Assembly (NCBI GenBank): GCA_029964075.1
Contig: CM057144.1
Span: 5,417,281 to 5,481,280, forward strand
DNA from: Patiria pectinifera
Lineage: Eukaryota > Echinodermata > Asteroidea > Valvatida > Asterinidae
Direction: 5' to 3'
Length of the DNA stretch: 64,000 bases
The notes below the pieces were generated by a model. That model saw only the letters and a list, made by a program, of their open reading frames with translations, did not search any database and was not told the DNA's origin. Below, in pieces: positions 1 to 63,720 of this stretch. The translations under genes were made by a program, and so were the position numbers. Position 1 is the first letter of the stretch. Each line of letters begins with the position of its first letter.

Positions 1-93
1 TAGGGTTTTTCCATTGTGTTAGGAAATGTAGGAAATAGCAAATACATGTAGGCATAGTGTTAAACTTGCTTTGATTGGCAATTGTCTCATCAG

Positions 94-9200: not shown

Positions 9201-12200
9201 GGTAATGCGTTGTAATATTTGACCTCCTTCACTATCGGTGTCAATTGAGTTAACAGATCCACTCATTGTATGCAAAGAGATGTGTGAATTTTCACTCGTC
9301 ATAATTATGATGGAATCAGCTTTTGCTTACAGCAGAATTATTTGGGGAAAAAAACAAATTTGAAAAAGTGATTCTCATGTCAATTTGATTTGCATTTCCT
9401 CAACACTAGAAACTGGTGAGTGATAAACCGTGTGTCCTACCTGAGTCTTTGACGACTGATTCCTTGAGGATTGAACTCCAACAGCGTGGTCTCAGCTCAC
9501 AGGGAGATAGGAAGACGTTGATGCAGCGATACAAACAACCCGAGGATCGTAAGTGTTTAGTCTGAACAGGGCAGTTCTTGTCCTGTGTCTCTAGTTGTCT
9601 ATGATGAGCGTTGTATTATTGTCAATGACTCATGATAATTAAGGATTGAAATCCAGCGGCGTGGTTTCAGCTCACAGGGAGATAAAAAGACCTTGATACA
9701 GCGATACAAACAACCTGAGAATCGTAAGTGTTTATTGTCTAAGCAACACGCTCTTTGCGTTTGTGATATTATAAAGTTTTCTGTGATGAGTATTGTATCA
9801 TACTCAGTGACTCATCATAACAACTTAGGGAGGAGTACCGATTCGTTGTTCCCTCAAAAATTTATCCAAGCGCATATATATTTAGCCTAATTTAGCCAAA
9901 GCTGTACTGTATTTTTAAAAAGGGTGTTGTAGTTGTAAGATTGTACTTGCACGCATTGCTTTTCACCAAACTCGCAATTGAAAGTAACCCCCCCCCACCA
10001 CCCAAAAAAAGTCAACACTCATTGGAGGGGTCGTAATTTTAATCTGATCGTTTGTGATAACGTCATTTATACAGACCTTCGCGGAATGTTGTTAGCTACA
10101 TAATTTTGATACCCCGTTTTGATAAGACTGTAAATCGTCCAAGATTGACAACGGTTTATGAATTATGATGCAATTTGAAAAGTTGCCAATTTGAAGAGTA
10201 AGTGAGTGGAAATTGCTGCGTGACAGTGTTATACACTACCTGAACTAAACGGCAGGGAATATTGATTGCATAGTACTTGTATGCATGGGAGCACGCAAAA
10301 TTGAATTACCCGCGCTCTGTTCAGACACTGTGCAGTCAGTAGGGGCCAATTATGGGAATGCGTGTTTGCGCTTAGCTATTTCTCCTTGCCTAATTTTTAA
10401 ATTTGCAAGTTTTCAAACTGTGTCAATTTTCATAAATCATTGTCAATCTTGGACGATTTACAGTCTTTGGTAGCAAATGGGGTATCAAAATGTAGGTACA
10501 TTCCCAAAGGTCTGTATAAATGACGTTATCATCAGACGATCAGATTCGTTATTATGACCATTCCAATGAATGTCGATTTTCTTTCATTTTTTACGGTGTA
10601 TATAAAAAGAAAAAGGTTCATACGTATATCTTAGAACAGTGCCCTCTGGTGTCCAATGGTGTCCAGCCAATTAAGCCCCTCCACTTTCCAAACTTCTAAG
10701 CTGCTGCATGGTCCCCTCCCCCCGATGATGACTGAGCACAAAGCAAGGACCCATCCTTTCTCTGTAGTCTGAGTGGGTTGGTCCTTAAGGATGTCTGTGA
10801 GTTCTGATGTTTGTAATGAGTCTTTACATCGACACCGTTGCATCATAGTCAGACTTCTGATAATGGAAGATTGAACTGAAAGCATGTTTACTATTCCTGC
10901 CTGAATTTCTTTGCTTCTGTTCGGCAATTCTTTCCATGAAATTTGGCCCATGATTGAAAATGTTGCTGAAAATACATTCACTCAGTATATATGACTGAAT
11001 ATTATTTCAACAGCTTGAAAACTCTGATGTACTCATACGTCATTATGATGTCATGCTTTGTTTACGGAGGTGCACTATCATGTGGGAGCCAGGTGGGGAC
11101 GAGAGCCACCAAGCTCCCATAGGAAAGCGCACATGTAAACAAAGCATGACGTCATTGTTTCTAAGGTCTATTCAAAAGTAAGTTGACATTGTTGAGCAAA
11201 GGAATGAACAACCGATAATATCATTCAGAAAATGTGTACAACTTTTATTATTTTGTAGGCTGTCCCCTACTTCAAATCTCTCTGCCCAAGAATGTGTATT
11301 GTAAGATAGATGAGAGCTGCCTGGGCGTGGAGTGCTGTATGAACGTCAAACTCTTCATGGTATCTCTGGCCGTCAAAGCGTTCATGCGCTTCGACCCTTG
11401 TGAGTTCCAGTTTGTACTCGGCGTCAACTCTTGGAACTACACCATTGAGATCCTGGATGCTGAATTTGGTAAGTCAGTCGTCTCAGTTTACTTAATAGGG
11501 CCTGACCAAAGGGGAAAGCCCGTTGAATGTAAGTTACACATTTTTGTTTTTACACTGCATGTTGATTTGCTTTTGTAATGACTGCTTAATATAAGTTGTC
11601 GACATTGATATCAATGTTCCTTCCCAGGCACAGAATTGGAAGTGCCGGTGCCCTTTGACATTCCATTCGTTGATGACATGGAAATGCATCTCAGGTAGAT
11701 ATTGTACAATTTTGAATGCTTCGTTAAAGCCTAATTGAATTTGCCTCGTTTGCCCCCCAGATGATTGTATACTCGTAATTTACAACTTCCACTTGACTAC
11801 TGTTTAGTGTCATAACAAGAATATTTTTAATGAAGAGGTTTATAAAATAGCAGTTGACCTATGCAGAAGATCTGTATTTCCAAGCGTTAACCTGATTAGC
11901 ATTTATATCTAGATTCTGACCTTCAAATTATATGCAACTTTATTTCAGTGCCCTGTACATGTACTGCACACAAATACTATTTACATTCATGTTTATCTTC
12001 TTCATGTTTATTTTCATGTTCTACATGTTTTCTAATTTTGAGCTGCATAACCATCACTTCCACATGATGGTACATTTTTCCCATTAGGTATGGCATTGAG
12101 AAGAGCAAGGCTCAACTACTTGTCAGTATGGCTGTCGGTTTCTGCCCGACAACGGGAGATGCTGAGTGCTTGGCATTCATCGATGTACTGAAGGATACTG

Positions 12201-15200
12201 CCATCCTCTTACCTACATGCCATCCCGATAGGACCTTCTCATGGCCAAACAGTAAGCCTAGCTCTGCAATCTGAATAATGAATGTTGAAGTCATATGTCA
12301 TCTCAGCGACAAATCTCTGTTCGTCACATAGTTTCATTGATTTTACAGGTGTGCTATATTTAGATTTATGTAGCCTCCACGATTTGCGTTTTGATGAACT
12401 GACAAGTGTACATTTAGATACGCGCACATGCTGTGTGCAAACATAATAATGCTACATTTTTGTGACGAAGTAGAAATTCCGTTTTTGACGAAGTGACAAA
12501 TATCTTTAGTAATTAAATGTCTCCTAATTAAACATGATTTTATGAAAGCAGAGACAATATTTTGGCCCTTTAACTGGGCCATTGCATCAGTTATATATTT
12601 TTAAATTCTTGGTGTAGAAATGTACGCGAAACCTGCGATTTGAAAAATCGACCAACTTCGCGATTTTCTCAAAAACTCAGTTTTGCCGGGCTGTGTGCAC
12701 AGTTCGTCAAAATGGTGACGAGTCATGACAGTTTCATGGGACCACTAAACTCTAAGATGAAATAACAAACTTTGTCCCACAACCCTTCATAATTTATTGG
12801 TCTTATATTTCAGTTGACCTTGAAGAGTATTTCTCCCGTGCTGTCCTGAAGAAAATAATCCAATCAACTCCAGAAGAGATACTGAAGGCAGACACAGAAG
12901 CTGCATTGGGCTATGTTGTGGATGAGCTTGGCATATCAAAAGTAGGTTGACACCACATTACCCCGATCACAAGCAATGATGCGAAATTATGAAAACTGTC
13001 AGGCAAAGTGATAATCAGTGTTAATCACGTCATTTGCAGCAGCAGCCGATTTTACGAAACAGTGCGGTACTTACGCCATGTGTAGGATTTGCGCAATTTG
13101 TTGCGTAAATCCTACACATGATCCTATGATCACTTTCATAAAATTTGGCCTGGCTACACAGTGTCGTTAATATTTGAAATCATCACTGATAATTAAATAT
13201 CAATAAGCTCAATGTCAGCATTGCATATCACTTTTAGGAACTCTTAAACGCTAAGGAGCCCTGTCCAACCCCAGCCAGTTTGAGTAAAACCCAGCTGATT
13301 GCCACATTGGAGGAGAGACAGCTGAATATCACAGGAACTAGAATGGAAATGGAAGACAGGCTATCTCACGATGATAGAAGTAAGTGGAAAAGTCTCAAAG
13401 GTTTATGGCAAATTAATTGACACGTCCCCCCGTCCCCATGCACCTCGTGGTTTTGCCAGCACTTGCCAGCATAACATATCACACCAGAGTTTAAGCCCCT
13501 TAAGTATTGAATTGGAGATAGGGAATCCTCGTGCATTATTTAGTTTAATTTTGAACACAAACACCGTTTTAAAGTTCTATCCACGGATCACAACAAGTAA
13601 GTTTTCTTTCAGCAAAACGAAATCAATTCTCTGAGGGATGCATGTGAATTGTTTTCGTTTTGCTGAACGAACACTTACCTTTTTTGTGATCCTTGAAACA
13701 GAACAGAATAAAAGTTTATAAAGTTTTATCTCCCTGGTTTTTTACTGGTCGCCCCCCCCCCCACCACCACCACAAAAGCTTGAGGCTACATATAGTTAAA
13801 TATATATTCATATTATGGATGAGAAAAAACCTCTTTCCCGGCTCAAGACTGTTATGGGCTTATATAATGGCAAGATGATTGATGGCCTTGCGATAAAAGC
13901 AGCTATACTTCACAAACCTTGTGGTTAGAGCTGGACAAAACAAATCATATGAGAGTTGGCCTGGGACTAATCTTTGCCTCATAAATTCAGGGTCAAAAGT
14001 TCAACCAGGATTAAAGGGGTGTCCACGATGCTTTTTAGCTATATCTCAATAGGGAACTTGATGGAGTAATTAAACACTATTTGAAAATATACTACAATGG
14101 CAGTACTGTCGTACACCACATAGTTAAGGATTACAGGCAGGGCACTTTGGGGTGGTTAATGTCATTGCATTTCCAAATTGCATGGTCAGCACGTTGTGGC
14201 TTTATAATTGCCTGATGGGTGCCATTTGTCAGTGGGACTGAAAACGCATAAACCTTTTTCATTTCATTGTTGCAGCTTGTCGGTTCTTCACACTGCCGGC
14301 ATTCCCCCCGGAGCTGGCCAAGGTGGCCTACTGCTCCCTGAGTGAGAACTGCCTCCGTATGGACTGCTGTCTGGAACTCAACATAGAGGACCAGAAATTC
14401 CGCCGCTCGTTCAATACCTTTTTGGAAGTAGATGCCTGTGATTTCACCTTGTACGTTGCCTTTCAGCACTTGCAGTACAAGAAGTTGCTGCTGAGCTACG
14501 AATGGGGTGAGTCTTTTGTTTTTATTCCATTTACAATTTCCACCATTAGCTCAACTACAAAACCAAGGTATGAGGCCCATTTGGGGTTTCATGCTACGTG
14601 CAATGTGTTTTTTTTTCTCAAAGTGTTCCAGATGTGGCAGCATACGTTCAGAAATTTAGAGGAAACACACTAAGCATCTGAAAATAAGCTCACGCGATTC
14701 AATGGCACTTGTGGCTAATAGCCCAATTTCCATTTTTATGCTTTCAGAGTGAATTCAATACACTGGATCAAGGGATGAACTGTTGAACCAATCCCAAACG
14801 TGTATTCAGCCAGAGAGGACGTGTATATTGTGAAATGATAACATATTTTGCATGTAGACACCCTGATTTTCATCGATTAGTAAATGCTTCGCAAGAACAC
14901 AATTTAGATATCTTCTTTTCTCCATTGTTGGTCAACCTCCTCCCAATCCTGACAGAAAATCCAAACCTGACTGCTTGAATGGGTTGCACTCTTCTGGCAC
15001 AAGCGAATGATGCGTTACAAGTTTTTGATATGATTACTACCCTTTCTGCATATTACCCAGGCCGACTAGAGCAGCAGACCATTGGTCCTATCACCCTGAG
15101 CTACTCCATCAACAAACTGGACGCTGAGAAGGTGTTTGAGGTAGACTTTGGGGCGTCTATCTGTGAGAGTGCCGATGATTGCATCTTTGATGTGGACATC

Positions 15201-18200
15201 ATCCAGGACTACAAGGTTCCCATTCCATTCTGCAATTCCAACTTCTCAGTCTCCTTACCTGGTACGATTTTGTTACATATCTGTTGGCCAACTTTTTGTT
15301 TATTGAGAAGTTATTCAAAAAATGGCTGAGACAGTTTATGAATACCTTTTGGTCGAGAGCCCGTCATGTGGCAGGTCTTATGTGGCTGTTTGAAACACTA
15401 TTATCCCAATTTGAAATGCTAAAACTTAACAATTAAACTTGAAGGTTTGTTTGGGTGGGGTGGAGTGGGGCTGGGGTGGGGTGTCGGGCCTGAACTAAAA
15501 TGCACCTCACACTAAATTTATCAGTTCGCGTTGGAGGGCGCGATAACACGCACTGGCTGTTTTTATACACAGGCACGGTTGATGGGTTAAATCATCAAGA
15601 TTGCCTCGACGTCTAAACACGCTTATCCTTCGTGCGTTAACACACAGAGTCAATAAGGTCTGTGGAGGCAGACCTTGTGTTGATCTTGAATTGGCCGTTA
15701 TGCATGACCTATTGTTCGACAATATACACTCCAGTGCGCACCTCGGAGTATTTAAACATATGAGAAATATCGTACAAATACTGTTGAAATGACAAAATGA
15801 CTCTCTTTGAATCAGTACTAGTGACGTTTGGATGTATCAGAAGTTGGTTGGAAAATTTTGCCTTTTGTGAAAGTCAAAATTTTCGGCAAAAATAATCCGG
15901 GTGCGAAGTGCTTAATCAAACATAGCTTTACTTGTGTAGTATGTGATATTGCAACATTTGACGACTGGCACTATGTCAGTGATTTGTGGTTTGCAAATTT
16001 GTTTAATAGTGTCATCGAGCCTGTAGCTCCTCCGTCCATACACATCTCACTGTAACAATTGTTTGTTTAGGTGGAGACACTCTGAGAGATTTTGTGACTC
16101 AAGTCGGCAAGGGTGCTGGACAGCAAGCAATCAACATCTTACTGGAGTACATCGGGCTCAGGGATAAGATTAATGACGTAGCATGCGACACGACAGCGCT
16201 GATAGGACCAGATGAAGAAGGTAAGGTCTGGATTGAAACATCTGAATGGTTTGGTAGGTGGATTAAATAATGTATATTGTTATATCTTTTTTTCTGTGCA
16301 GCAAAGTCGTATCTCGCACAGTTACGCTCCGTGCAACAAGGTCGTATCGTGCGTATCGCGACGTCCATTTACTTTGTGTGTACATCCGGGTTATTTTAAG
16401 CAAGATTAAGCCTTTTGACAATGCAAACTCGCTTTTCAAGCATATGACGTCACACGCCATTTAAGGAGATACAATCATGTTGCATGGACACGACGATATT
16501 GTTTCTTGGATGCTGTAATTGCATTGGTCTATAATGGTCACGTGTCTAGTCTAAAACTGACTGTTTACTGCAAAGCACTGCAACCAATGCAACACATTAT
16601 CACTTATGCTCGCTAAGCCCTCTGACTAGTAATATCAAAGGCACAATGTAGTGACTTAGTTTGTTGCAGAATATCACAATGATTTACATTTGTGATGTGG
16701 GATGGCATTTTAACAACCAAGGGGGCCCATGGCAACCGATGCAAGGCCGTTAATACATACAACCTTGCCCCACCAGGGGTACTGTGTGTCCCTCCTAATA
16801 TTGGTCTCAAAGCCGACTTTATTGTTATCTGGGTTTGATTCTGCCATTTGATATCAAATGATGAATCTGCAGATCTGAATACTATACAATCTTAATATGC
16901 GCCGAAAGTTTTGCCTAAAAAAACGCAACGTCTGTTTTGGCTTCGTTTGGTAAAGTCAATAGCACAATGAAACGGTGTAAGCATTGGAAAGCAAAACTCG
17001 TCCAGTTTAAAAGTTCTACTGGATTCGTGCACAGCCAGGCAAGGGTCAGTTACTCCGTCCACAAGTTTGCAAGCTGCGGCATCATGGTCTCGTCAATCTA
17101 GGATCGACAGTTTTGTGTGTTGAAAATACGTTTAATTTTGCCAAGAGGGTGGGGGTGCGCTCCCATAAAAAAAAATCGGTGCCCCCCAGTCGGCCCCCTT
17201 CCCAGAAATTCGGCAACCGGAGAAAATCATAGTCCTATAAGTTACCATGATTAGCAGATTGATCATAAAGTGCCTTTTTCCACAATATTTGTGTATTGTT
17301 CCTGTTTTTCGTGACTGGCTGTTTATTTTAAAATCCCGTGAAAAGCTGAAAGTCATAGCTTTTGCCTGACATCGATATTGGTTTTGAACAGCGTCCCCAT
17401 GGGAAGAAAGGTGTCGAAACCCCCTCCCCCTAACCCACCCACAGTATTTGATTTTTTTGGAGGTCGGGCGTCCATTGAAAAAAAACCTGTCTACCTAGCG
17501 TGGATGAAATTGGGCTCCTGCTATTGTAACATCCATCCCCCACTCGCCCCCTAGGATGAGAATACTGACTAGCCGCTGCTTGTGGTTGCCTTTGACTTGA
17601 CTTGGGAGGACTTTAAATAGATTCAACTACAACATTGGTTCTTGGAAATGAGTTTTATGTCTACTAAATATGCTTCACTTCAGCAAACCAGCCTGAGTAG
17701 GTTTTTTGTAGCCTGATTACTGGCTGAGCTGCACTGGCTTGTCCAAGCTTTTTGGTTGCTGGTTGATAATTAGTCATTATAAGCTAATTTGTTGTTGAGA
17801 ACTCCCCACTAGATTGTTTGCTCAGTGTATTTGCATGTAAGATGAAGGATTGCTAATTACTTAATTTCACTTCATTCAATTAATTTTATTAACTTTGAAA
17901 TACGTGTACAACATAATGCCCAGTTCTTACCCTGACTTGGGTATTACAATAGTTTCTTCATTCAAATGTTTGAATTTTCACCCAGTATGCATTGATGTCA
18001 GCCTACCATCACTGCCCAGTGGAGTGACGTGTGAGTTTGCACACCGGTGCCTCGGTGTGCGATGCTGCACCGAACTGGATCTAGAAATCACTGTCTTGTC
18101 AGTCAACATGTGGTTTATCCTAGACCCCTGTGAGTTCACACTGTCCTTTGGATTTGGAACGTGGTCCTTGAAGTTCACCATATTTGACTACCACTGGGGT

Positions 18201-21200
18201 GAGCACCTTACAGTTAGCTGATCAATTCGTCACAAAGTGCATGTGGATTTTGAAGAAAAAAGGCATTTTCGAGACAATCGCAAGAGAAGTTTCTCCTATT
18301 TTAAATTTACTAATTGGTAACAACTTTATTCAGTAATTAAAGGAAACCTCCAAATGATTCTTAGAAAAGTAAACTTGTATGTGAACCTAGTAACTATAAT
18401 TAACTTTGTTAATTAGCCAAAACTAATTAGTAAAGATGTCGATACCCTTTCGTGAAAACGAAAATTCATTGCCGCTCAAAAGAAGCGGTACTGCTATTAT
18501 CACCGGCGGTTTAACCCTAAAGGGGCCGGGTTATTTTGACCATCTCTCAGCCGGGGGGGGGGGCGGATTCCGCCCCCCCTAAGATCTCGGCCATCGAGTG
18601 ACGAAAAAATTCGGCACATGCATAGAGCAACTCTTCCTAAACATACCCAAGAAATTTCATGACTATAGGTCAAAGGGTTTTGGAATTATGGCTAATTAAT
18701 TATTCATATGTACGAATGGCAATTCTGCTCTGTGTACACGACGTATATGCGAAAATTCAGTGTCACGGCGCGTAGCGCCGGAAAATTTTTCGCTACGCGG
18801 CAACCCGTGGTCCGATTTTTATGTTTTTGGTATCAAAAGATGCGCAAAGCTCGAGGCTAAAAAGTCATAACAGCTCGGGTCGCGAAAAAATTTTTTTTAG
18901 AGGCTATCACGGAAAATGTTGAGGGGGGGGGGGCGGATTCCACCCCCCGGCCCCTTTAGGGTTAATAATGAGATCCTCCCTTGCATGCGTGCAGCTGAGA
19001 ATGTAAAAAATGATGTCTGTCCATTCATGAAAATGAAACTCTCAGGTGACTTTTTTACGCCTTTTCGTGCAATACGTTTTGTACGTGTTCAAGGAACAGG
19101 CATGGTCACGTCTTTTTGTTAACATACCAAATGCAACTCTCCAGAAACCTGCCCCTGGCATCATTAATGCAATTTGCATATTAATGATGTTTTGCCTACG
19201 GAAGCATGTCAGAATGGTCAAGTACGATACTTACGTCCCTTTTTGAAAACGACGATGCATTGTCTTACCGTGGGGAATTTTATCCTTACAGATAACGTCA
19301 CATTATTGTAGACGAGTCCTCCTCATCCTCATCCGAGTCCGAGTCCGAGTCCTTGAGCAAAGGACTCGAGTCCGAGTCCGAGTCCTTGTCAATTTTTGAT
19401 GTCCGAGTCCGAGTCCGAGTCCGAGTCCTTGAAAAAAGGACTCGAGTCCGAGTCCGAGTCCTTATGTATCAAATTCAAGTCGCGGTTCACCAATACTATA
19501 TTAACGTTTTCAAAATGTCACTATCAAATGTCAGGTGATAGAGAAGGGGTAATGGTTTTGGCTGTATGCACTATGCAATGCATTCATTATTTTTGCGAGC
19601 GGCAGAACTGCGGAATTCGGTTCCACAGCAAAACCAAATCAAGGTGAAAGACATAAAATAATTGAAATAAAACACCTAAAAAAGACCCGATTTTGCCGGA
19701 CTCGAGCCGGACTCGAGGCCGAGTCCTCGAGTCCTTGGGGTCCGAGTCCGAGTCCGAGTCCGAGTCCTTGAGCAAAGGACTCGAGTCCAAGTCCGAGTCC
19801 TTGAAAAAAGGACTCGAGTCCGGACTCGAGTCCGAGTCCCGAGTCCGAGTCCTACAACACTGATAATGTGTTTCTTCAACTGTTGACCAAATTTAAAAGT
19901 GTTGTCACATTTAAGAGATTTAAGTAAGTTGAAATAGATAACAAAGCTTCTTTTTTTATTGAACCTAGGTACTCGGGAAGAGTTGAAGATTGGCAAAGCC
20001 TTGACCCTGATCTACACCATTGACAAGCTGACTCAGGACGAGGTGTTTGTATTGGACCTAGCACTGTCCCTGTGCCTGCCAGACTCAGACTGTGACTCGC
20101 CCTCTATTGACATCCTCAAGAAGACCAGAGTGCCGATACCACTCTGCAACGAGAATGCTACATTCTCACTCCCTGGTAAATTTATTGCTACAGGTTTCTT
20201 GTATTTCAGCAGTATACCTTGTTGAAAACTGACCTTATTTAGAATTGTTTGTGTGGTCCTTTCTTGTGTATTTTTGAATCAGTATAGTGCAGGTTTGTAT
20301 AGGGTTAGGGTCAATACCTAATAAAAGTTCATCATGACCTCTGAACTTTTTGGTTCATGTGAACTTTTTTGATCCTCATATCGTCATCGTTATTTGACGA
20401 CGTGAGGAATCTCTATTTATCACTGAGTCTCACTGATTGTACACGTGTGCCATATTTGGATTTTCGTAGCCTCTATAGTTTGCATTTTGACAAGTGACGA
20501 ATCTGCATTATCATACATTTTACATCAGCGAGCGCTGTGTACAAACATATGCTACATCATGTGTGATGAAGTAGAATGTTTGTGTTGACGAAGTGAGAAA
20601 TAGTGTCTCCTACATTAAACATGATTGAATGAAAGCATGATATTTTTTTTGGGGGGGGGGCAATTTTACTACTGGGCTATTGCATCAGTTATATATTTTT
20701 GAATTTTGGGGAGAAATACAATACAAAAGCGCGATTTGCTGACAAACTTCAAACGTTAATTTCTCAAAACTTGGTTTTGCAGCTGTTAGTGCTGATTTGT
20801 CACTTCGTCAAAACGGTGACGACATGAACCGTAATATAAAACCAAAATCACCTTTATCAACCTACAGTGCTTATCTTGATTACCATTTTAATTTGTTGGT
20901 TGCATAATTGAGTACGTTCCGGCGAGAAGTCGACTAGTGGTTGATTTGTGATGTAACTTTCGCCTGCGCACTAATAACAACGTGCTTACGTCTCTAGTCA
21001 AAGCTGCTCAAAACAACATCACAAAAACTTCGGGGTCCGGGATCCCTATTGTGCATATAATGATACAACTGTGCCCTGTGGTCCGGTTCCAAATAGTCAA
21101 CTAGAGTAGTCCGACCATCCTGCGTTCGAGTGAAGCTGTAAAGTTAAACTCTGATTAACCCTAGACTCGGCCTGAACTTGCTCCTTAAATACTGCATCTA

Positions 21201-24200
21201 TCTGCATCATTGGATAATCTTAGAATAGTTTATTTATTAGAAACTTGAAGGGCTGCCCTACTTCCCGTCTTCTTCTTTTTAGAAACGGATTGAAAATTAT
21301 GTTAAAGTTGTTATAACCAGATTATTATACTTAATAAATGTTCAAAGCATTTAGGGCTTACAAGTAAATAGCTATGGTTAACCAATTCGATACAAACTCT
21401 TGTCATTAGATTTTTACATATCCTACCAGGGGAGACAATTTTAAAAAGGAATTTTATTCCACAGGGGATGGAACTATCAAAGGTTTCCTAGAGATGGTGG
21501 GTCCGAATGCTGCTGAATCTGCCGTGGATGCAATTCTGGAGCATTTAGGACTGTCTGTAAGTCCTGTACTGAATGTACTGAATTACATAGGGTGTGTTCG
21601 AGTTGCTCACATTACATGGATCGATCTTATAGCTCCACGGATCGACTAAACGTAGACGAGTTAGCCACGACAGCCAGGCTGATCAAATGCTCAAACGATC
21701 ACGATCCTCACTGCATCCATATCCGTGGTCATACCCATCAACAAAACGCCCGTTTCGGAATGAGATTTACTTGAAGATTCACTGCTTTTCCGTTAATCGC
21801 AAAAAGTAACAACGTTGGGCTGGAATTAAGGCCTCGAAGGTCACAATGAGATCAATAAATAATTAATTTTGCACTTCAAGTAAAGTTGGTTTTATGGTCC
21901 ACCTGACCTTTTCCACTGACTGGCCGCAGTATTTGTTTATTTGTTAGCATGAGCAACACATACGTTTGATGTATTTCCACCAACTCTGCTTTATGAGCAG
22001 GGTCTGTGGTTGCTGACCTGGGTTAGCCCCGAGAATGACGTCGGGGTTAGTCAAAAGGCATGGGGCTAACCCGAGTCCACCAGGATGAGCTAATCGAACG
22101 CAGCCAATTGACATATTACGTCGAAACAATTTGTATAAAAACAATTGAGCATTAATCAGAAGTGGTACAAATAAGCTTTTCTGTCTATCGCTGCAAATCA
22201 TTTCAAAAGCATGTTAATGACTGAGGAACTTGTAGAACTGATTAAAAGGCTGAAAAAAATATCATTTTCTGAATAAGACTAAGATTAAAACAACTCTCAT
22301 TTCTTTACAGGAATACATCAGCCATGAACCATGTGTCCGTCCACAAGTGACTCAGAATGGTTGGAACAGAAGTAAGTCAGTTAGGCTATCAGCTTCGGTC
22401 CAAAAAAATTGGGCCACCGGTATGAAATGAACGAAAAGATCAAAGTTCATAGCGATTTTGGGCAAGTTATACACATAAAGAATTGGAAAATGTGTGATAA
22501 CTTTGTAATGTGAGCAGTGGCAGTTTTTTGGGGTGTTATCACTTTTATTTTATTTTTTTCAAAATGGCCGTCAATATGCTTGATCCGGATTAATTGTATG
22601 TGAAAACAAGCATGTTTTGGCTGCCATTTGAAAAAAAGCGAGTGATATCACCTAAAAATCTGCCACCGCTGCAATGCTATCACATTTTTCCAACTACAGG
22701 GGTACATATACCTTGCCAAGTATCACAATGAGCATTTTTCCCCTCATTAGGTACCTACCAAACCCCCAAGCTGATGGCCAAGCTACAGTAGCGTATCCTG
22801 CTTTGGATGTCAGGGGGGCAACCGCACATCCGCACTGAAATGTAGACACGTTTTTTCTCCGGACACTTGGCCTCTGTAAAATCAAATAATAGGGGTGGGG
22901 GCTGGTACCCACCTTCCAAATGGGGGCGCTCTTCAAAACTGACCATTTCTTTGCATACTGCAAGTTATATCCCCATTTTCACGGCATCTCCGTTTAGATG
23001 TCAGAACTCTCCAACCAAAATAAATGCTGAACAATGTTGTTAAAAAAGCCGCCAGGGAGGCAGAGTGCCCCTCCCCCCCCCTTCCTCTGGATACGCCACT
23101 GCCTAGGTATAGATCGCCTCACAATAGTTTTTTTGTTTATCCTTATCTTTTTCCCCCAATCATCTGAGTCCACTTTCCCTAATAGTGAAACTAATTCCCT
23201 GCAATAGGTTCAGTGATATGGAACTGTTCTTTTTTCTTTTAACTACCGTTAATTTCTTGTTTTATAACTACTCATCATTGCTCCAGATATGCATGTTTGC
23301 ATTTCAATTTCTTAGCACCCCTTTTCAAGCGTCCATGCATATTTATGCTATGGGAACAACCACCAAAAAGTGCGGCTCATTATACATTTTTTGTTCACCG
23401 TTGAAAAGAGAACAACATTCTAATTGTATTAAATTGTATTAAAGAAAACATCATTTTCTTTCAAACTGATATATTATATTTAAAAGAAAGAGGGTCTGTA
23501 CTTTTTATTTAACAAATCATAATTTTATCAAAATTTACCACCATTTTGTGTGTGAAGTGTCGGTTTCCAGTAGGCCAACATCTTTTCAATTCGCCATGAA
23601 TAAAATTCGCCTAACCGTATTACATTCTTTACAAAATCAGTTGTTAGGGGATGTTCTTGTCTAATGAAAAATGTAAAAATCATTGTAATTGGATGTTGGG
23701 AAGGACCAAACTTTTATGTAAAGGAAGGTGATCACCAATCTTAATTCAGATAGCTAAAGCATGTTTTGTTTCCAGGTGACGCTCTCTCACACGTACACAC
23801 GCTTACATAGGCATAGAAATGGGGTACTTGCTTTGTTCTCGTGTACTAAAATTTTGCAACGTCGCACACACACTTATGTAAAAATGCTCTTATTCTAACC
23901 ATAGTTAATTTCCTGGGCTGACATTTGGACTAAATGTCCCTTTTCAAAAACTCTTCCATTTGCGACGGATCTACCCACCTTGGAAATTCCTAGTTTTTGA
24001 GTAAAATCCATATATCTATTTCGTGAAAAACTTGTTGGGTACCAAAACGGTACCCCGCAAGTCGATGGGCATTCCTTGTGGGGTACCTCCCATTGTTCCG
24101 GTACCCCACAAGGCAGTGGTTGTACACGCACCAATCTTTGTAAACATCGGCAATAGTGGACCTCCTATTGTCCCTAATCTTCATTCCTTTGTACTCTTTG

Positions 24201-48200: not shown

Positions 48201-51200
48201 CCTAGACCCCTGCAACTACACCCTGTCTGTGGGCTTTGAGAAGTGGGAACGTAGTGTCACCTTGTTCCATTACCCACTGGGCGATGTCATGGAGGAAGTT
48301 GTGAACAGCGTCCTGAGAGTCAGGTATGAACAGTTACCATGACCCATAATTGGTATTGCTTGTGTAATCAATCCCATAATCGAGTGTCCATTTTGGGAAA
48401 CATACTGTTGACAGTTTTATGTTCCACACTCAGTGACAATCCTTACAAAGCAGAACTTCATCTTTAGGTTATGAAACAATAATGTGTACGACATCGTAAA
48501 CGTACACAAGATGTACTGTGCTGTGCTTAGCAATTGAGCACAGTGCGCGCAGTGCAAGTGAAACTGGCTCAACAATCTAGTCACTGCCAATGTCACTGGC
48601 CAGATCCTAAGTGAACATAAAAAGAAGTAACTAACCCATCTTGTCCGCCAAACTTGACCGCCCTATGAAAATCACTGGGCAACCGTTCCATAAGATTCCA
48701 GTAATATAATGTTCTGACTCGGTTATCAACTACATTTGTATCTTGAAGATGGCGCGTAGCTAAGATCACCGAAGACAAGCAGTTTGAGGTAGACCTGTCC
48801 CTAGTCCTCTGCATGGATGGAGAATGTAACACAGTTACCATATTGGAGGGCAGCCATTTCCCAATACCACTGTGCAACAAGGAGACGTCTTTCACCCTGC
48901 CAGGTATGTCTTAAACTTTCTTGTTTTTGCATCACAACAAACAGATTTTCCTCTGTTTTTTTTTTTGACCTGGGGTCGATCACCCTAGTTTCTCCTAATT
49001 TGGTAGTTGCAGTGCATGAATTACTGCCACATCAGGCAAATAGATCTCTTATAGAAAACATGAATTGGAACTGTTTCATTTTTGTTAATTTTTGATGTTC
49101 TGTGTATGTAGTCGCAGCAATTGCAACTTGCTCGGAGAAAATGATCGAACATTTTTTGGGGTATCAAGAGTGGCATGAAAATCCTGGAATGATCTTGTTT
49201 TTATTTGATTTGTGTGGGTTTCTGTTCACTGTACAGGTGACGGCACTGTATCAGGTTTTTTGGATTACCTCGGTGGTAATATCGGTCAGTTTGCCATAGA
49301 TGCAGCCCTACGTCATCTTAATCTGGGCAGCTTCCTAACAGGACAGGCATGCACCTATCACAGACAAGGTGAGTTTAAAACAGTTTGTTATGTGATTCAG
49401 ATCGTAAATACAAATGGAAAATAGGAATTTAACCACTAAACAACGTGATTAGTTTTTGGCCGAAAACATCATTTTTGAAAAAGACACAATATAGCGGCCT
49501 AATTTTTAATTAAGTCAAACACCACAACACCCTACGACAAATTTCTTGCTATGCTGCTGATGTTTCTTACATTCATTTTCTGTTACGGAAATAAGGTTAA
49601 TATAGTATAAATATCCTAAGTCTCTGCTTAAACCGATAATTTGTTACTGTTGTGAATTACTATACCATCTTCACCAACATATTTTGGGGTCTATCTCTCC
49701 AGATGTCTGTGCAAGTTCCACAACTATCCTAGGCAACTGCACCGTGATTGGTGAGACCTGCACAGAGCTGCGATGCTGCCTGGACCTGGACCTGAAGATA
49801 GCTGATGTCTCGGCCACGGCGTGGTTCAAGTTTGACCCCTGCGACTTCACCTTCTCGTTGGGTCTGGAGAAGTGGTCCTTCCATGGGTCCGTCTTCAGCT
49901 ATCAGTGGGGTAAGAGCTTCATATTGCTGGCGGGGAGATAGAGTCTGTGTTAAATGGTTAGGTAGCTGGACAGCCTTCGAATAGAGCGTGTAAGTTGACC
50001 TCAAATACCTGCGAGATTTTACGAGAATACAGCACATCCGGACACCATGTATAGGATGAACATCGTGTGTAGCATCCTATTTTTCTACATCTAGTTTGCG
50101 TCCTGATTGGGCCCATCCAATCCAGGACGATAAATGCACATTTGTAAAATAAAGAAAGCATTATGATTTACAACATATTGAAAATGTTTTGAAATGATGA
50201 CTGTTATCAAATTAAGTTTGTTGACCTCAACTTCCGTTCAATCGATCACGCAGATAACAATTGGGTAAATTCAAACACGGGAGTCTGTGACTTTACCTTT
50301 TTTAGTGTTTGGTACCAGGACTTTCACATGAAAAGTAAGCTTGGACTGGCGAGACTTACAAGCTCTTTTTCCAGCTGAAAAAGAGAAATCAACATGGTTG
50401 ACAGTGGTTGGGACGGGTATTGATACAGTCCTGCGTACAAAATAAGACTAAAAAGATAAATTGAAAAGAGGAAGAAGCTTTGAAATCAGACAGGGTTACA
50501 CTTGGAAGGGATGATGTACTTGCACATGAGTATTTAACAAATGTATAATTTGATTCAAAGTTTTCTTTTGATTGGAAGAATGACACTTTCCAGTTGTCAG
50601 TAGATGGTCAAGTCAGGTCAGTTTTGTTCAATATAACAGGGTAAACATAATTTTTAATTCATTGAACAAACAGAGAGCAAATTATTGCATAAAATTACAA
50701 TTTCTACTCTTACAATAATTTTGTTTTACCTGTTGTAGGAGAGGAAATGACGGAGTCCATATCTTCTGGAATGAACTTGAGGTACTCATATCAGTATTAT
50801 TGAATATTGAGTGCACCTAATGTATATTCTTTGACACTTCGTCTTATTAAGTTACCAAAATATTATTAACAGATATTTCTTTCAAAAAAACTACTGGATT
50901 GATAACTGGAAAGCGTAGTAAATAAGTTAATCAATTCATTATTTGAATAGGTACAATTAGACAGAATGACTTTTGAAATGTGGTATCAAAGTTGTTACAT
51001 TTCAATATGAGATGCAGTATGTAGATGCACAAATTGCCACTATGCTATCCTTTCTCATTGTTTATAACACTTGACATACTGTAGTTGATGGCAGACTGTT
51101 TCACGTGTACATTTGACAGATATTCTATTGATAAATGGAACGACACCAAAGAGTTTGAGATCAGCATGACCCTGGAATACTGCGTCGATGGACTGTGTAC

Positions 51201-54200
51201 TGACATCAACATGGAGCATAACGTCCCCATTCCTATCTGCAACCCAGACTTCAGCAACTACACCCTCTCCGGTGAGTTGAATCCACCCAACCCCCTTAAC
51301 CTTACACATGAAAAGTGAAGCTCAAGATTAATCCAACTAAGCTCCAACAAAATCACAGATCCTCCGACTAATATGCAGAGCTTACAAAATATGTCAGTGA
51401 AGGGCAAAGGTAAAACCAAATATTTGAAATTACATCTGCCTGATGCAAAATTCCATCATGTAATATTTTGTCTGCGCTCTGTATTTCCAACACGAACTCG
51501 ATACAACCCAGCCAAGCCAATACAATTCAATTCAATTCAATTCAATTTGACTTTATTATCCCTGACAGGAAATTACAATTAAACACATCAATGAACACTT
51601 ACAAAATTACAAATAATAAATAATATTACACACAAATCACAATACATGTACTTCACTATTAAAGAAGAGAGATATAGAATGTTATTAAAATTCAGTACAG
51701 ATAGTGCGCATAACCTAAAAAAAAGGCCTGTTTACAATTCCATGTGATTCCAACTTAAAATTCTGTGTTATAAACTATTCGAACAGATGTTCGTGTAATT
51801 ATAGGGACCCTTCATATTCACTATTTCAGTCTCATCAATTGTGTTAAAAGTTACTGCACAAAACCTACAAAGGCCCCCTTAAAATTCCACGTGGGTACAA
51901 TTTAAATCCTGTGGTAATCTCTGTAAATCTTAATTAATGAAAGGTTTGCGGAAACACCAAGTGCGAATAATTTCTCAACTAAGAGAATGGTTCTGAAAAG
52001 AACCAGAGGTATAAACTAGACGTTCCGGTCAGTATGCTCTGACCGTCTTCAGGAGAGTCTCTCTCCCTCCTGAAGACGGTCAGAGCATACTGACCGGAAC
52101 GTCGATCTGTAAGCCTCAAATCTGTAAATCTTGTATAAAAATAATAATCATCATCGCTCCAACTGCACGTTAAAAATCTGAACAGCTGAAGGGACAAATG
52201 TACTGGCATACCGCTTAGTTCTAATCCTCCGCTCTAGTGAATTTTTCATACAAAGGCTGAGTTTCATCTGACATAATCATTTCAATCTTGTTCAGCATCA
52301 GAGACTTATACATGTTGTCAACCATTGATTGATCAGTACCAATTATTTTGTTCGCTTGCTTAACTACCCTATCCAGTTTAGACCGATCCAGTGCTCGCAT
52401 GTTTCCAAATACACATATAAGACAGAATGCAATAATACTTTGCAAGGCAGACTTGTAAAACATTTGTAAAATGGTATTGTCCACATGGAATGAATTCAGG
52501 TTCCTAAGCCGCTGCTTATTCACAAAAGCTCCATTGTGAGATAAAACATCAACAAAAAAATGTGGCCACTTTCGTGCAAAACGGGCAGTTAAGCACAGAA
52601 AATAACCTTGGTTTGAATGCGCACAAACTCTTAGTGTACTCACTTGGGCACAGAGTTGAAATGGGATTCAAGTCTGGCGCGGGGTTTTGGGGGTTTTTGG
52701 GTGTGGAAACCCTCTCCTGCTCTCACCCTCCTCCTCCAATAATAAAGATTGTTACAATTACAGTAAAAATAATAAAATATGACATTCGGACTGTCCGCAA
52801 CAATCGGACATAAACAAATCTGACGGCCCGACACCCACCCCCGCAAAAATTCCTGGATCCGCCCCTGCAAGTGTTTCTCTCACATCTCTCTTTTGTCAAC
52901 TTTTGGGGCACTTGATAAAAAAGTCCATACAATAACCTTCAAATTTCCACAGCCGCCTTACCCAAACTTACGATCCCATTTAATACTTCAATTCAGCTGA
53001 TGGTTTCGTAGAAACTCTATCGGGACAGGTCATCCAGGGAGCAACGCTGGCCCTCCTATCACGGCTTGGAATCGACCCAGAATTCTTTAGTGATCTACCG
53101 TGTGTCAACCCCAGTGGACCCCAGTCTTATGACAGTAAGTTCAGATTGTAATTTGTTTTGGTATGCGTTGCCACACAGGCTTAATGAATTAGGACTTATA
53201 ATTTCCGCATATTTTATTCCAGATTGTCCCAGCATGCAGCTGGCTAGTAACTTGACCTCCCTGGCTCACTGTGGCATCCTCAACACTTGTTTTGGCATGC
53301 ATTGCTGCCTGGATGTGAACCTTGGACCGCTGAATCACTCATTCAGTGCCTCTATGGAGATAGATCCATGCCTGGGCCAGCTGACGCTACAGTTTGGCAA
53401 CTGGCAGTACAGTAAATCCCTCTCACACCTGGACTTCGATACCAGTCAAGATATCACCATTGGCAACATTGCGACACTTGGGTAAAAACAACGTCTTGTT
53501 TATTATTGCTCATCAAGTGTGAATTGGCATGTAAATAAATATCCTAAATTCTAAGAAAATGTATTCATTATGGGATAGGTCTGCAGTTTAATACTTGACT
53601 ATATCAGCGTTTAAATTAAATGAACTGATAAACACACAAAACATTTTTATTATTGTGACTTATATTTGGACTATTCTTTCAGCGTTATTTGTTGATTGCT
53701 TAACATTGCTAAATTTCTGCTAATATTGATGTGTGTACACCAGCACTTCTTGCTTGTTTTTTTTTATAATGCAGATACACACTTGCTCTAATGGATGGTC
53801 AGATATCAGTCAGTCTGTCCATAGAAGCCTGCATCGATGGTCATTGCACCGGACAATTAATGATCTTAGATGGTGCGGTATCTCCTCTTCCTATGTGCTA
53901 CCCCAACGGAACCATTTCCTGGAAAAATTTGCCAGGTGTGACTGCTAAATCTAAATTTACGTTGAAAGGAAACCTTTCCCTTCTATCCAAGCTTCTGTGT
54001 CTGCTTGTTTGTTTCTGTTCACGCCCTTGTCATTCTGTCTGTGAGAAGGATACCCTGCTGGGAGTGGAATGTAGGATCAGTTCATACTTAGTGCGAATGT
54101 GTACGCGAAGTGAGTTTGGAGTCACGAAACACTCGCTGCAAAATTTACTGGAATGGAAACTATGTTAAAACTGCATAAATTCGCTTTCACGTATAAACTG

Positions 54201-57200
54201 GCCTTAGTTTTCATGAAAGGAAAACCTATGCAGATGTCATATGTTTAATCTCTTCTCGTTCTTGTCAGCGACTTGACAAGATGCTACTTTGTTTTGATCA
54301 CTGCTAGGTATAACCTCCATTTCTCAGTTGGGAAGCCTGGATGCTGGATTCGAGGCTGTAGCTCAGGCTCTTGGCTTACCATCTCGTCTAGTCTCGGCCT
54401 CACCTTGCCCACCTGTGATACAACCTGGCCAGTCTGGAGGTAGGGACAGTCTGCTGTGGGTGTGACAGCTGATGAAGTTACGATGGCACATTTTGTCCAG
54501 AATTGTTCTCATAACTTGTGCTTAAGTGATATATAATTTGTGGACGCTTAAAGAGCACCATATGTTCTGATTATAAAACTTTGCAAAGAAAATATTTCTG
54601 ATGATATTGTTAGTTACTAGGTATCTTCACTTTACGTGTAAGAATTTACTTTTATTTTTCTGGGGTTTGAGTGTGGAATTCATTGCCATTATAAGATAGA
54701 AACACAATATTAGGAATTGACTTTTACTCGATATAAACTTTAGGTAGCTTGTCATTTTGCAGATATTTTGGCTAGTAATATGTAATACTTAATGACCACA
54801 TTGACCATGCCATTTAATATGAAATAAACAATCATATTCATAAACCCTATGTTGCTGTGGGACCCTCGGTGACTGTTAAACCCTATATTTATTTTTTCGT
54901 AAAGTTTTTCACTTTCCCCCATTGTCATCTATATGTATACTTCTCTGAAGATGTCAAAAAAAGTTCAAAAATCATTTCGTTTTACACATTTACTTCAGTT
55001 AGAGCACGGTTCAAGATACATTTGTGTAAATTTATTAAGCCTACTGCGAGCATAAACATTACAGAATGAAATCTGCTATTTTAATAACTCTTCTCATTTG
55101 CTAGTATCGTCACTTTTTCTTGTTTTTTTTTCCGTAGCGTGTCCACATCTCCCCTCTCTGCCCACACTTCCATCGGGAGGTGTATGTCACTATGCGGATA
55201 CCTGCCTAGGGGTGGAGTGTTGTCTAGCAGTAGACCTCGGCATCATAAGTCGCACCCTGAGGGCCTGGCTGATTGTAGACCCCTGTGATTTCAAACTGAG
55301 CGTTGGATTTGAGAACTGGAGTTACAATGTAACTCTTTTGAGGTATGACTGACTCTTGAGGACCCTTCAATGAAAACGGAGAAAGAGTTAATACCGATTT
55401 CGGTACACAGTTGCTGCGGGCTCTAAGATGCTCCCCAGTGATGGAGGATGCACTGTGCAAGCTTTTGTCCAGAGTGGCTAATAAGAGAATAAATGTGTGC
55501 TTGGCCGATTTCAAACACTATGTTAGAGACAAGTTGGAGTCTGGATAACCCGAACTGAAGGTAAGGGTAATTATCAGCATCCAGACTCCAACTGGCCTTA
55601 AACATAGTGATTGAGACCGGCCCAGTACATATATATTCCCATTCATCAATATCTTTTCGGTAAAAAAAAATCAAAACTTTACGGTCCAAAATTCAAAATA
55701 TGTCACAAATTTTAAATTTCCAATGATTTTGCTCAACAATTTTACTTCATGCTTTAGCTATATTATGACTCTAGCTATATTATGGTATATCCCTCTCGCG
55801 AGGAAGTCAAAAAAGAGCTCCTTATGTGGAGATTGGCGTGCGTGTACTGCGCGATGTGGTGCAGAACGCAATTGTACCAGTGCATTGTGATTTTAGGACT
55901 AAAAAATACTGACTCTCTGGTAGTGTTGCACATGCCTACAAGATGATTGTGAATGTTCAACCAATAAAACGGTAAAAGACACAAAATGTCATAGGAGTCC
56001 AAATTTCATAAAACTGGCCACGTGCCGGGCTCTCAACCAATAGGAATGGGTAAACTGTCTTAGGTATTTATGAATATTGCTTTAAATCAAAAGTTGAGGG
56101 TCAAGCTATGTTATTTTTGACTTTTGACAAGAGAGAAGTTCTCAATTAAAGATAAGTAAAAACAAAATGAGTTTGATGATGACTGCCTATTATAATGTAA
56201 GTGATATGACAAGCGCATAATGATGAAAGGCCAACATGGCACCGTTGAAGTACTAAATAAAGACAACTCGTAGAAAGTTACAGTTATTGTGAATTGGCCT
56301 TTATTGCAGTTACAAGTGGGGCAAAGTGACAAGGGAAAGACTGAGTGATGTGGTCTTACTCACCTTCACCGTCGACAAGACCGCAGACAACCGTAACTTC
56401 CTCCTCTCCCTCTCCCTGCAACTCTGCATCGCTGGAGTCTGCGCTCCTGACATTGTCATCCTTCAGGACTTCACAGCACCGATACCATTCTGTCATCCCA
56501 ACGGTTCTTTGGAGTGGGTTAAAGACTCGGGTAAGTTGTGTGTATATAACCAAGACTCAAACAGGATTTGAAACACAACATTTAGCAGTTCCAAAAAGGC
56601 AGACACTTTGAGCAGGTCTTTAAAAAAGTTGTTTCTTGATACTTAAAGTAATTAATTATAAGCGGTTATTTGAAGAAAACAAATAAAATCAGTAAGCATC
56701 ACAAATCAGGACATGATTTGTTAAAGGGAATATACATCATTTGCTTTTGCTGTAATTTTCAGAAATGGATGGAATTGGGGGGTTGGAAATATATAGCAAA
56801 TATAGTTACACTGACGTTTTTGAGGTTTTGGGTTCGAAAATGCTATAAAAACCAAGAAAAACAATCATTTTCCTGTAGTCTGGTTCCCTGACTCCATTTA
56901 AGAAGAAACAGAGCATAAATATATTGGGGAATTGTAAAGTCAGGGAACCAGTCTAGCTGGCTTGTCCCCGTTCATAGGTGTGTAATCGATTGCAAACAAG
57001 TGCGATGGTCAACTGGGGCCAGTATTTGGAAAAAAAACCAGTTTTTTCCAACGCTGATCGGCCGATCAGCGTTGGAAATTGATACAAAAATACCACTTTT
57101 CTTGAAAATGACAGTATACCAGGTGCCATGATTTTACAGGATGCTTTAACACTGTCATTCACTAACAGTCCAGCAAGGTATTTCAAAATGATTTGGTAGT

Positions 57201-60200
57201 TTTATTTTTTGATGTTTGCAAATGTTGTATTTTCCCTTTAAGGGCTTACTAAATAACAAAAATTATCAATACTCACATTCTACATAAAAAATCAAGGTGG
57301 TTGTGCAAAGAAGCTATTAAAATATTAAAAACAGAGCATTCAAGCCACTCTTAGTATAGTTGGAAAGACCTTCTATCGTTGATTTCTTCAAAATGACAGC
57401 ATGCCAGAAAGAATAAATTTAACACGGAGTTTAGTTCCCTTACTATCTTTCAATCAAGTATGTTTTTCAACAATAATAACGTCAGTTACTTTTCGGATAG
57501 CTGGAAATAATGCACTGTATCTTTAAATACAAAAGATATGATCAACCCAATGAATTTACTTATTTTACAGTTTGTCCCAAAAAAGGGGGCCCGGATAAAG
57601 TTACGGCCATATCTAAAAAAAAAAATATATATATGTTCACGTCAAACTAAATTTTGTATTTGTTTTTCGATAATGTTGGCTTCCATGTCGAAGAAGCACC
57701 AAGCCAAACAAGCTACAAGGAAAGAGCTGCAGGGTATTTTTGTTGTTCAATGCTGTTGATGTTGTTTATTGTCTGTGAAGAAATAAACTGAGTTGATTTA
57801 ACACTTTTCAAGCTATGACTAGAAACGTAAGGGCTCTTAAAATAACAATTGACACATTGTCACGTCAACATCGACATTACATTTCATTGTATAGATCCTG
57901 TGCTTTTTTGGAACTTTCGTTGTGCGGAATTGCAAAAAAAAAAAAATTATTTTTTTTAATGAAATATGTTCAAGGGGCAATATCTAATTTTTGTCAGCAT
58001 ACGATTTTATTTATGAACATTACAAAATAAATGTGTTATGAAATATAGACATAGACTTTTCTTGTTTGCATTTGACATGTTTTTGTGCGTGACAGATTCG
58101 TGGTCTCCCTCTCTGCACTAATTTACCAGCACAAAAACAAGCTAATGCCGTAACGAATGTAAATTTCGATTTTATGAAGCTCTTACGTTCCTAGTCATGG
58201 CTTTAAAAGTCTTCACTTATTTCAGTTACTATTTCCACAGGCGATAACAACATCAACAGCATAAAAAACACACAATTTAGTCTCACACAAAAAATTGATC
58301 GATATGGCCGCTGATTTGTCCGGGCCCGCTTTTTCTGGAAAACACTGTAATGAAAAAAGCTTGATTTCATTAAATATTTAAATTAATCAAAACAAATAAC
58401 AGATAATGTACACTAGTTTTAGCTGAACGCTTGTTCCAGCACTCTACATTCAAACAAAAGGGTTTTGTCTGAGTTGTCTGTCGCCTTGTGCTTGCTCCTC
58501 AGTTGATGACAATGGTGACGATGCTAGTGGCCTGGTGGTGAACCGTCTCGGTGTCAGCACTGATGTGCTCCTGCCTCAAGCCTGCAGCGGTCCACCAGAG
58601 CAGATCACACCATCAAGCACAGGCATGGAAGAATACATTCATTAAACAATCCACTTACTTTATTTTAAGCTACTCCAATAGCTAGTTTGTTCTCTAAACC
58701 CTATAATCGGGATGGCTGCCCGCAGCATCTGCAGTTATTCATAAAATGGAATCTGCTTCGGGGTAATGCAAATTTATTATAAGGTTTTGCCCTTTATCGA
58801 CGTATAAACATTGTATCCTCAGTATGTATACCGGCCCGTTCCCGAGTGAAAGCTAGAAAGAAAAAAGACCTGAGTGATTTTTCTCCTTTTTTAACTCAGG
58901 GGGTAACACACTGAATATACAGTGTTAGTTTCATGAATAGTTTAATTGCGGTACCCGCTGCTACGTCTGATTCAAACCAGCCAACCGATCCCGGCAGCTC
59001 GGTTGTCGAGTGGTAAGACGACTGCACTAGAAAGCAGACGGTCGTGGGATCGAGTAGTAGTACCTGTAGTTCATGCGTTAAAATGCTATTGTGAAGGCAT
59101 GGTGAAAACGAAGTGTCCTGCAGTTTTAAGTGCAACTGATGTTTTAGGGAAGTCATGATTATGAGTGAATCACATGTCAATCACGAAACATGATGTTAAT
59201 TATTTTCCAAAGGCACTACGCCAATGTAAAGATGTTACCTTGGCAATTATGTTCATCCCCTGTTGCTTGTTACTTAATGGTGTGTGATTAGACTTGTGCA
59301 TGGCTTATTCTTGACTCAGCTACTACTCTGTTTGAGACCAGGTCTTAGACGAAGGGAATATAGGGTTGGGTTAGGTATACCTCATGTTATCAGTAAAATT
59401 TGTAAAGCTAAGAGTTACGGTTTTTTCCCGTCAGGCTGCAGTTCCCTCTCTCTTCCATCCTCCATCGCCCAGTACTGCTCCCTGGACCAGTCCTGTCTCG
59501 GGGTGGGTTGCTGCTTGAACCTTGACCTGTGCGTAGTTCAGAGGTCATTCTCAGTCTGGATGACGCTGGACCCCTGCGCTCGCACCTTCTCATTTTGCTT
59601 TGAGAAATGGAGTCACATGGAGATGCTCAGCATACAACTATTGCAGTGTAAGAAGCGCTGGAATTAAGAATTGACCGTGTCATCAAATCTGTGTTATCTA
59701 CTACAGTCTTTTCAAGAATGAAACTAATGTTAGCTAAGTGTATGAATCTCATTGGACAAATTTCAAGCCATAGTAATTTTATTTGTTTTTAATCTCCAAA
59801 ACGAATACAATTTTAATTAAAACATTCAGTTAGACAACCAAAACAAAGAGAGTTCATTCGACGAATTCAGTGGTATGAGTGAGTATTTTGTGCATGTTCA
59901 CATTTCCGAAACACATTTGCAAGATAATATACATCTAGGATTACAGACCAATTCAGAAATGTTTAATGTTAAGAACAACATACTGTTTTCATTTGTTAAT
60001 ATTTATAAAATCCTTTTTTTTTGCCACAGCTCATTCCTTTGAGAAAAAGCTAGGAGATTTGAAAATCAGGTAAGGTAAATCATGTCAAGCAGTCTGTATA
60101 TGTAGGCTCCTTTATCCATATCCCGAGTTAACCCTTTGCCTATGGTTAGCCAAAAGTGTCTGTTTCAAATGGTGCATCAGCGAGCAAAACCGATATATTA

Positions 60201-62724: not shown

Positions 62725-63720
62725 AGTCAGTCTTTTTTTCAATCACAAGTCATTCACAACTCAAATTACTAGTCAGTCACAAATCAAATTATTAGTCACT
62801 AAACAAGTCAAATAACTAGTCAGTCAAAGTAAAATCAATAGTCACAAGTCCAATGACAAATATTCAAATCAATAGTCAGCCACAAGTCAAATCACTAGTA
62901 AGTCATAAGTTTTATCAGTAGCTAGTCACAAGTCAGATTACGAGTCAGTCACAAGTAAAATCACTAGTAATTCACAAGTTAAATCAATTGTTAGTCACAA
63001 GTGAAATCACTTGTCAGTCACAAAAAAGTACTCGTATGAGGATAACGTCATGACAAAGCTGCAGCCGGAGAAAGTGGTCAAAAGTCAGTCTTTTTTTTTT
63101 CAATCACAAGTGATTCAAAACTAAAATCACTAGTCAGTCACAAGTCAAATCACTAGTAATTCAAATCAATAGTCAGTCACAAGTAAAATCACTAGTCAGT
63201 CACAAGTCAAACCACTAGTCAGTCACAAGTCAAATCACTAGTCAGTCAAATCACTTTTCAGTCACAAGTCAAATCAGTAATCAGTCACAAGTCAAATCAC
63301 TAGGCAGTCACAAGTGAAACCAACAGTCAGTCATAAGTCAAATCACTAAAAGGTCACAAGCCAGATCACTATTAAGTCGTAAGATTAATCACTAACTAGT
63401 CACAAGTCAGATTATTAGTCAGTCACAAGGCAAATCACTATTCAGTCACACGTCTAATCACTATTCAGTCTCAAATCTAATTACTAATCAGTCACAAGTC
63501 AGATCACTAGTAAGTCATCAGATTATTCACTATCTAATCACAAGTTAGATTACAAGTCAGTCACAAGTCAATCACTAGTCAGTCACAAGTCAGGTCACTA
63601 GTCAGTCACAAGTCATGTCACAAGTCAAGTCACAAGTCAGTCTCAAGTCTAATCACAAGCCAATCACGAAGTCTGTCACGAGCCCAATCACAAATAAGGT
63701 CAACAGTAACAATGGCATAA
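62725..63720 (+). repeat. AGTCACAAGTCAAATCACT minisatellite with a copied exon tail
   Basis: Irregular units of about 20-25 bp, built from AGTCAGTCACAAGTCAAATC and variants, fill the region. At 63036-63076 there is a copy of the end of the previous exon (GAGGATAACGTCATGACAAA and GCAGCCGGAGAAAGTGGTCA). Its donor is lost (CAAAAGTCAGTC), so it is not a usable exon. Confidence 0.8.

Follow-up and report, generated by a model that had tools for sequence, protein, structure and literature searches.

A twelve-fold array of a ten-cysteine module in a giant gene of the sea star Patiria pectinifera, and its ten paralogs

Giant extracellular proteins carry tandem disulfide-rich domains, and arrays of EGF, Ig, VWC or SRCR domains are well-known examples. 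The locus considered here shares with them modules of phase 1-1, conserved cysteines, a long array and purifying selection, and differs from them in that its module stays below the cut-off of every Pfam model. The window, that is, the whole stretch of 64,000 nucleotides that was analysed (contig C16, positions 5417281-5481280 of a 613.5-Mb assembly), holds on the best-supported account the middle part of a giant gene for a secreted multidomain protein. At a probability of roughly 60%, this is a giant secreted scaffold or adhesive protein that is built on an unnamed disulfide-rich domain.

The repeated unit and its exons

A splice-aware assembly of 40 exons resolved twelve modules of about 185 residues each, all on the + strand, between 11259 and 61611. 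The model runs for 2241 codons without a stop and with consistent exon phases throughout; its acceptors are all AG (40/40), and its donors are GT in 39 cases and GC in one, at 58622 in module 11, where GC was also read by eye at the matching site of the paralog g5. All twelve modules start in phase 1, and their parts are A (with six cysteines), A', B (three cysteines), C and the linker D (one cysteine). In some modules A' is a separate mini-exon, and the fused exons vary among modules (AA', A'B, BC or CD). Pairwise identity among the modules of this gene is 21-44%, with a mean of 31% over 66 pairs.

Module 1 comprises an A exon (11259..11468), an A' mini-exon (11634..11694), a B exon (12088..12251), a C exon (12814..12941) and a D exon with a SAP-like stretch (13238..13379). 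Module 2 has an A exon (14276..14506), an A'B exon (15061..15261) and a CD exon (16071..16220), and module 3 has A (17986..18198), A'B (19969..20175), C (21465..21556) and D (22311..22371) exons. The arrangement AA', BC and D is found in modules 4 (28754..29015, 30609..30855 and 31507..31561), 5 (32662..32917, 33305..33551 and 36290..36347), 6 (36522..36774, 39795..40041 and 40338..40392) and 7 (41123..41378, 42036..42285 and 45342..45396). Modules 8 (48065..48323, 48749..48903 and 49237..49368) and 10 (53223..53481, 53775..53935 and 54308..54439) are divided into AA', B and CD exons. Module 9 has A (49703..49909), A' mini-exon (50739..50781), B (51120..51271) and CD (52997..53134), module 11 has A (55138..55342), A'B (56310..56530) and CD (58503..58622, with the GC donor), and module 12, the last, has A (59435..59647), an A' mini-exon (60030..60069) and B (61426..61611), where it ends without C and D parts.

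Every exon that carries an A or a B part, together with the CD exon of module 2 and the C exon of module 3, was found with the profile HMMs and stands in the gene model, with the genome search as further evidence for the AA' and BC exons of module 7 and the cysteine columns for the BC exon of module 6. A phase search contributed to the CD exon of module 2, the D exons of modules 3 to 7 (all in the model) and the A' mini-exons of modules 1, 9 and 12 (the last also in the model). Since phase and splice scores guided the choice of A' and D exon ends, the agreement of these ends is in part a product of that choice, and the independent check is conservation in paralogs: the D exons of modules 3, 4, 5 and 7 and the A' mini-exon of module 12 are conserved, and the A' mini-exons of modules 1 and 9 are conserved in the paralog g1. 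The C and D exons of module 1 come from the model, the former being conserved and the latter conserved in g1; the CD exons of modules 8 and 9 come from the model, and those of modules 10 and 11 from the model and conservation.

The A profile gave 12 strong matches on the + strand (11261-59628, each at E 6.3e-21 or lower, with further matches beginning at E 0.2) and the B profile likewise 12 (12095-61534, the weakest at E 0.0048), while the best match in a reversed-window control had E 0.2 with A and about E 5 with B. All 12 A matches and nine of the 12 B matches were themselves seeds (the non-seeds being at 12095, 48753 and 61448), and leave-one-out profiles were used to remove this circularity. 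They recovered every A piece (12/12, E 1.3e-15 to 1.4e-27), every B piece (12/12, E 3.6e-5 to 1.8e-23) and every whole module (12/12); modules 12, 10 and 1 were the most divergent by score, and the rows of modules 12 and 6 were retained in all counts. With these recoveries and with exactly 40 exons, the preliminary description of one repeated unit of about 185 residues, in twelve copies over about 40 exons, holds good. Its array start coincides exactly with the first A exon, at 11259, but the end it proposed, 62721, is that of a non-module exon (62555..62721), the last module having stopped at 61611.

That the exons form one gene and not several, as had also been proposed, is borne out by phases that join across all 40 exons and by an identical exon order in two paralogs. 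At E 1, tblastn found 40/40 exons in g1 and 39/40 in g5, where only the A' mini-exon of module 9 (43 bp) was absent; a stricter E 0.01 left the order unchanged, with every g1 exon still found and two g5 exons lost. By blastn most exons, in an uncounted estimate, matched the paralogs at about 70-95% identity, and many further matches were repeats.

The introns hold features of their own. Between modules 3 and 4, on the minus strand (24468-27842), lies a LINE-type frame of 1124 aa with matches to a PHD finger, an endonuclease and a reverse transcriptase. A palindromic minisatellite (29095-29614, a 21-bp unit in about 24 copies) directly follows the module 4 A exon, inside a frame that is open for 320 aa. 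The intron preceding module 8 contains a 119/239-bp tandem array (46913-47674), found at the same place in g1, and a 23-bp tandem repeat (62741-63691), also in g1, comes directly after exon 62555-62721. Searches of the window for tRNA genes and Rfam families returned none.

Cysteines, sequons and the flanks of the array

Ten cysteine columns recur across 36 modules, 12 each from the window gene, g1 and g5; seven are filled in 36/36, C7 in 33, C8 in 32 and C10 in 33. The earlier count of ten cysteines per full copy is right for nine modules of the window gene but not for module 6 (8), module 7 (9) or module 12 (11). Because module 6 is without both C7 and C8 in all three genes (in the window, in its BC exon), these two are suggested to be a pair. 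Module 7 of the window gene has lost C8 and kept C7, which either speaks weakly against strict C7-C8 pairing or is a recent loss. Of two sequon columns, the one that directly follows the PIPLC motif is occupied in 25/36 modules and the other in 12/36. The window array as a whole holds 22 N-glycosylation sequons, where 1000 shuffled versions averaged 12.1 and reached 22 at most.

Near the end of the module 12 B exon is a basic site, RRKRR, and RRKRRS is present in 3/3 paralogs inspected. After it, in all three genes, the reading frame leads to a stop (SVDDL-stop or SVGDL-stop) that overlaps the chosen splice donor, and the array might thus be the end of the protein. Splicing onto the next exon of the same gene, 62555-62721 (+ strand), is preferred because that exon is conserved, with 87% amino acid identity to g5 and 81% to g1.

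The gene extends beyond the window, with conserved exons for at least 6 kb upstream (to window coordinate -5980) and for 29 kb downstream (to 92921), and two more upstream conserved exons emerged from the comparison of g5 with g1. The upstream exons, several of which look helical by eye, span -5980 to 9548, and those on the + strand of the window are 2366..2499 and 5664..5921 (both with approximate ends, the latter also found in 11 genome copies), 7766..7944 and 9410..9548, of which the last runs from phase 0 to 1 and resembles the D exon of module 1. Conservation places all four, and Pfam adds to the last. In Pfam the upstream exons gave SAP-like pieces only, just below the cut-off. The SAP model (PF02037, cut-off 23.9 bits) scored 23.7 bits (E 3.6e-5) against exon 9410 and 21.7 bits (E 1.5e-4) against the D exon at 13238, so the likeness to SAP domains stops short of that cut-off, and the location differs too, since a nucleic-acid domain would not be expected in what would be an extracellular linker. 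A partial second copy of the exon at 9410 lies 175 bp downstream (9464-9559 versus 9639-9734, 89% identical), and by eye its donor is preserved but its acceptor is not. By eye, we take the motif order of the exons at about 90-5921 to resemble the LECT2 / peptidase M23 fold, but searches of Pfam and NCBIfam at E 1 did not return M23 for them, and among PDB sequences nothing matched below E 1.

Downstream, conserved exons of the window gene match PAN_1 (PF00024, E 3.9e-6) at 27.1 bits, above the cut-off of 21.4, and those of g5 match fn3 (PF00041, E 1e-5) at 26.1 bits, above the cut-off of 25. The link between these exons and the array rests on where they lie and on their conservation rather than on a complete spliced model; the two domains are neighbours of the array within the gene and are distinct from the ten-cysteine module.

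Family searches and the eleven genes

No Pfam-A model reached its curated cut-off with the 12 window modules, the consensus or module 5 of two paralogs. Over the 12 modules the best E value was 0.013 once the SAP-like end of module 1, at 0.0014, was set aside; a first Pfam search had used three modules that were put together by eye ahead of the splice model and had no D part. In NCBIfam, a prokaryote library, two modules scored at best E 0.089 (13.1 bits versus 175) and the consensus gave nothing, and phmmer and hmmsearch against the sequences of PDB chains left the module unmatched at E 10. The module exons also found no relatives further afield: none of the module 7 A exon in viral contigs, none of the module 8 A exon in prokaryote genomes (a scan that reaches close relatives only) and none of the module 6 A exon in plasmids by tblastn. 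In the titles and abstract openings of the literature nothing on the ten-cysteine module was found, which does not prove its absence from print. Judged by sequence, then, the module is unnamed in Pfam, NCBIfam and PDB sequences, as the preliminary description had supposed, a claim that we do not extend to "unseen".

It could instead belong to a known beta-sandwich or lipid-binding family from which it has diverged too far for sequence profiles to reach, which we consider unlikely. A model of the A part (module 8; pLDDT 67, pTM 0.47) is all-beta with five strands, and one of the B and C parts (module 7; pLDDT 68, pTM 0.41) has two helices after a beta hairpin, which would suit such an origin, as would two sub-threshold Pfam matches. 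Yet Agarase_CBM, at E 0.011 in window module 5, was missing from module 5 of two paralogs and from the consensus, and DUF4423_like, best at E 0.075 in 2/12 modules and at E 0.11 in g1 module 5, scored 13.2 bits against a cut-off of 24.1 and was set aside as noise. Foldseek against the PDB with these low-confidence part models found nothing at E 0.001, the best values being E 0.69 and 2.0; models of this quality do not allow the fold to be called new.

What is new in this analysis is that one genome holds 11 paralogous giant genes of this kind, with 132 A pieces between them. The consensus A piece found 139 places at E 1, all on the contigs C16 and C19; 132 had E 1.5e-8 or better and fell by position into 11 genes, and the seven weaker ones adjoin module 10 of four genes. 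On C16 there are five genes (13, 12, 12, 11 and 12 A pieces) and on C19 six (12 each), so nine genes have 12, one has 11 and one has 13, where each count was read by hand from the match table and means "at least". The 13th piece (4394999) is a partial copy adjoining module 11 of g1, and the gene with 11, near 6.17 Mb on C16, is without module 6 in both the A search and the B+C search; this is the same module that lacks C7-C8 in three other genes. One upstream exon and one downstream exon each occur in exactly 11 copies, with strand and side in agreement with the arrays (like all such genome counts, a lower bound), and all 11 genes share the order of upstream exon, array and downstream exon, which implies that whole genes were copied and not arrays alone. 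With a module 7 exon as the query, 131 genome matches were found, 130 of them free of an inner stop.

The paralogs lie at scattered sites, those on C19 in both orientations. In g1 (C16:4390001-4400000) a tandem repeat of the 5' portion of the A exon of module 10 gave eight blastn pieces over about 1.4 kb, the last of them the full exon, and weak partial pieces of module 10 also occur beside three other genes. Two family genes on C19, at 9.64-9.74 Mb and 9.90-10.01 Mb (L005 and L006), have opposite orientation and are near-identical in the compared exon (dN 0.005, dS 0.08), which reflects either an inverted duplication that happened recently or an artefact of the assembly.

Selection and the nature of the protein

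In a tree of the 36 modules from the window gene, g1 and g5, each of the 12 positions formed a clade of three with an ultrafast bootstrap of 100, which implies that the array was already twelve-fold before these genes were duplicated. The branching order among positions was mostly unresolved, and the tree program flagged long branches for modules 1 and 10. Over the array, dN/dS was 0.20 against both g1 (dN 0.056, dS 0.28) and g5 (dN 0.11, dS 0.56), figures that include about 30 module 11 CD codons in the wrong frame, which affects the module 11 and overall rates. The 3 and 1 stops in these comparisons are taken to come from that misframing; in the right frame the compared parts of g1 and g5 have no stop. 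No single module exceeded 0.37 in either comparison. For the A exon of module 7 in eight of the 11 genes, the summed dN/dS was 0.125, and dN was greater than dS in 0/28 pairs. By these substitution rates the array is under purifying selection.

These rates bear directly on the idea that the family is a set of immune or self-recognition receptors or opsonins, with twelve binding modules per paralog diversifying for many ligands. Proteins of this type can carry PAN and fn3 domains, and eleven paralogs on two contigs, at scattered sites and in both orientations on C19, are in keeping with it. The low dN/dS of both the module 7 exon and the array, the near-constant copy number and the want of any module above 0.37 stand against it, even if averages can mask a few selected sites, and we hold it to be quite improbable; because dN/dS is low, an immune role is less favoured than a matrix, cuticle, mucus or adhesive scaffold. 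That the modules are what is left of a decayed repeat, or of one carried by a transposon, for which one could point to the LINE and the minisatellites in the introns, is scarcely credible in view of the open frame, the conserved splice phases, a dN/dS of 0.2, the 130 of 131 genome matches without an inner stop and the finding of all A places in 11 ordered genes.

The favoured reading remains the secreted scaffold or adhesive protein. Its extracellular character, already suggested in the preliminary description, agrees with signs of the secretory route, namely PAN and fn3 downstream, the sequon column and the RRKRR site; the case for secretion is drawn from these domains, sequons and basic site because no signal peptide or membrane anchor was identified, nor was a final stop. 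The core of such a protein would be twelve copies of a disulfide-stabilised domain, with A and B parts rich in beta structure, a C part of helices and a short D linker with one cysteine. The protein would enter the secretory route, where each module would fold with up to five disulfides and would be glycosylated, and cleavage may take place at RRKRR, in the final exon of the array. The array would then serve as an extended spacer or a multivalent binding rod in extracellular matrix, cuticle, mucus or an adhesive layer. A more daring proposal, tentative and on the whole unlikely, is that the module represents an extracellular domain family that is new and, in this genome, peculiar to the one set of eleven giant genes, and that selection itself maintains the copy number, at twelve in nine genes; the array would then be a molecular ruler or a rod of fixed valency that is freed from its PAN/fn3 tail at RRKRR.

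If the domain is really unnamed, it would be one more family in the extracellular toolkit of animals. The eleven paralogs with their near-constant array length make selection on the array length of modular extracellular proteins directly testable.
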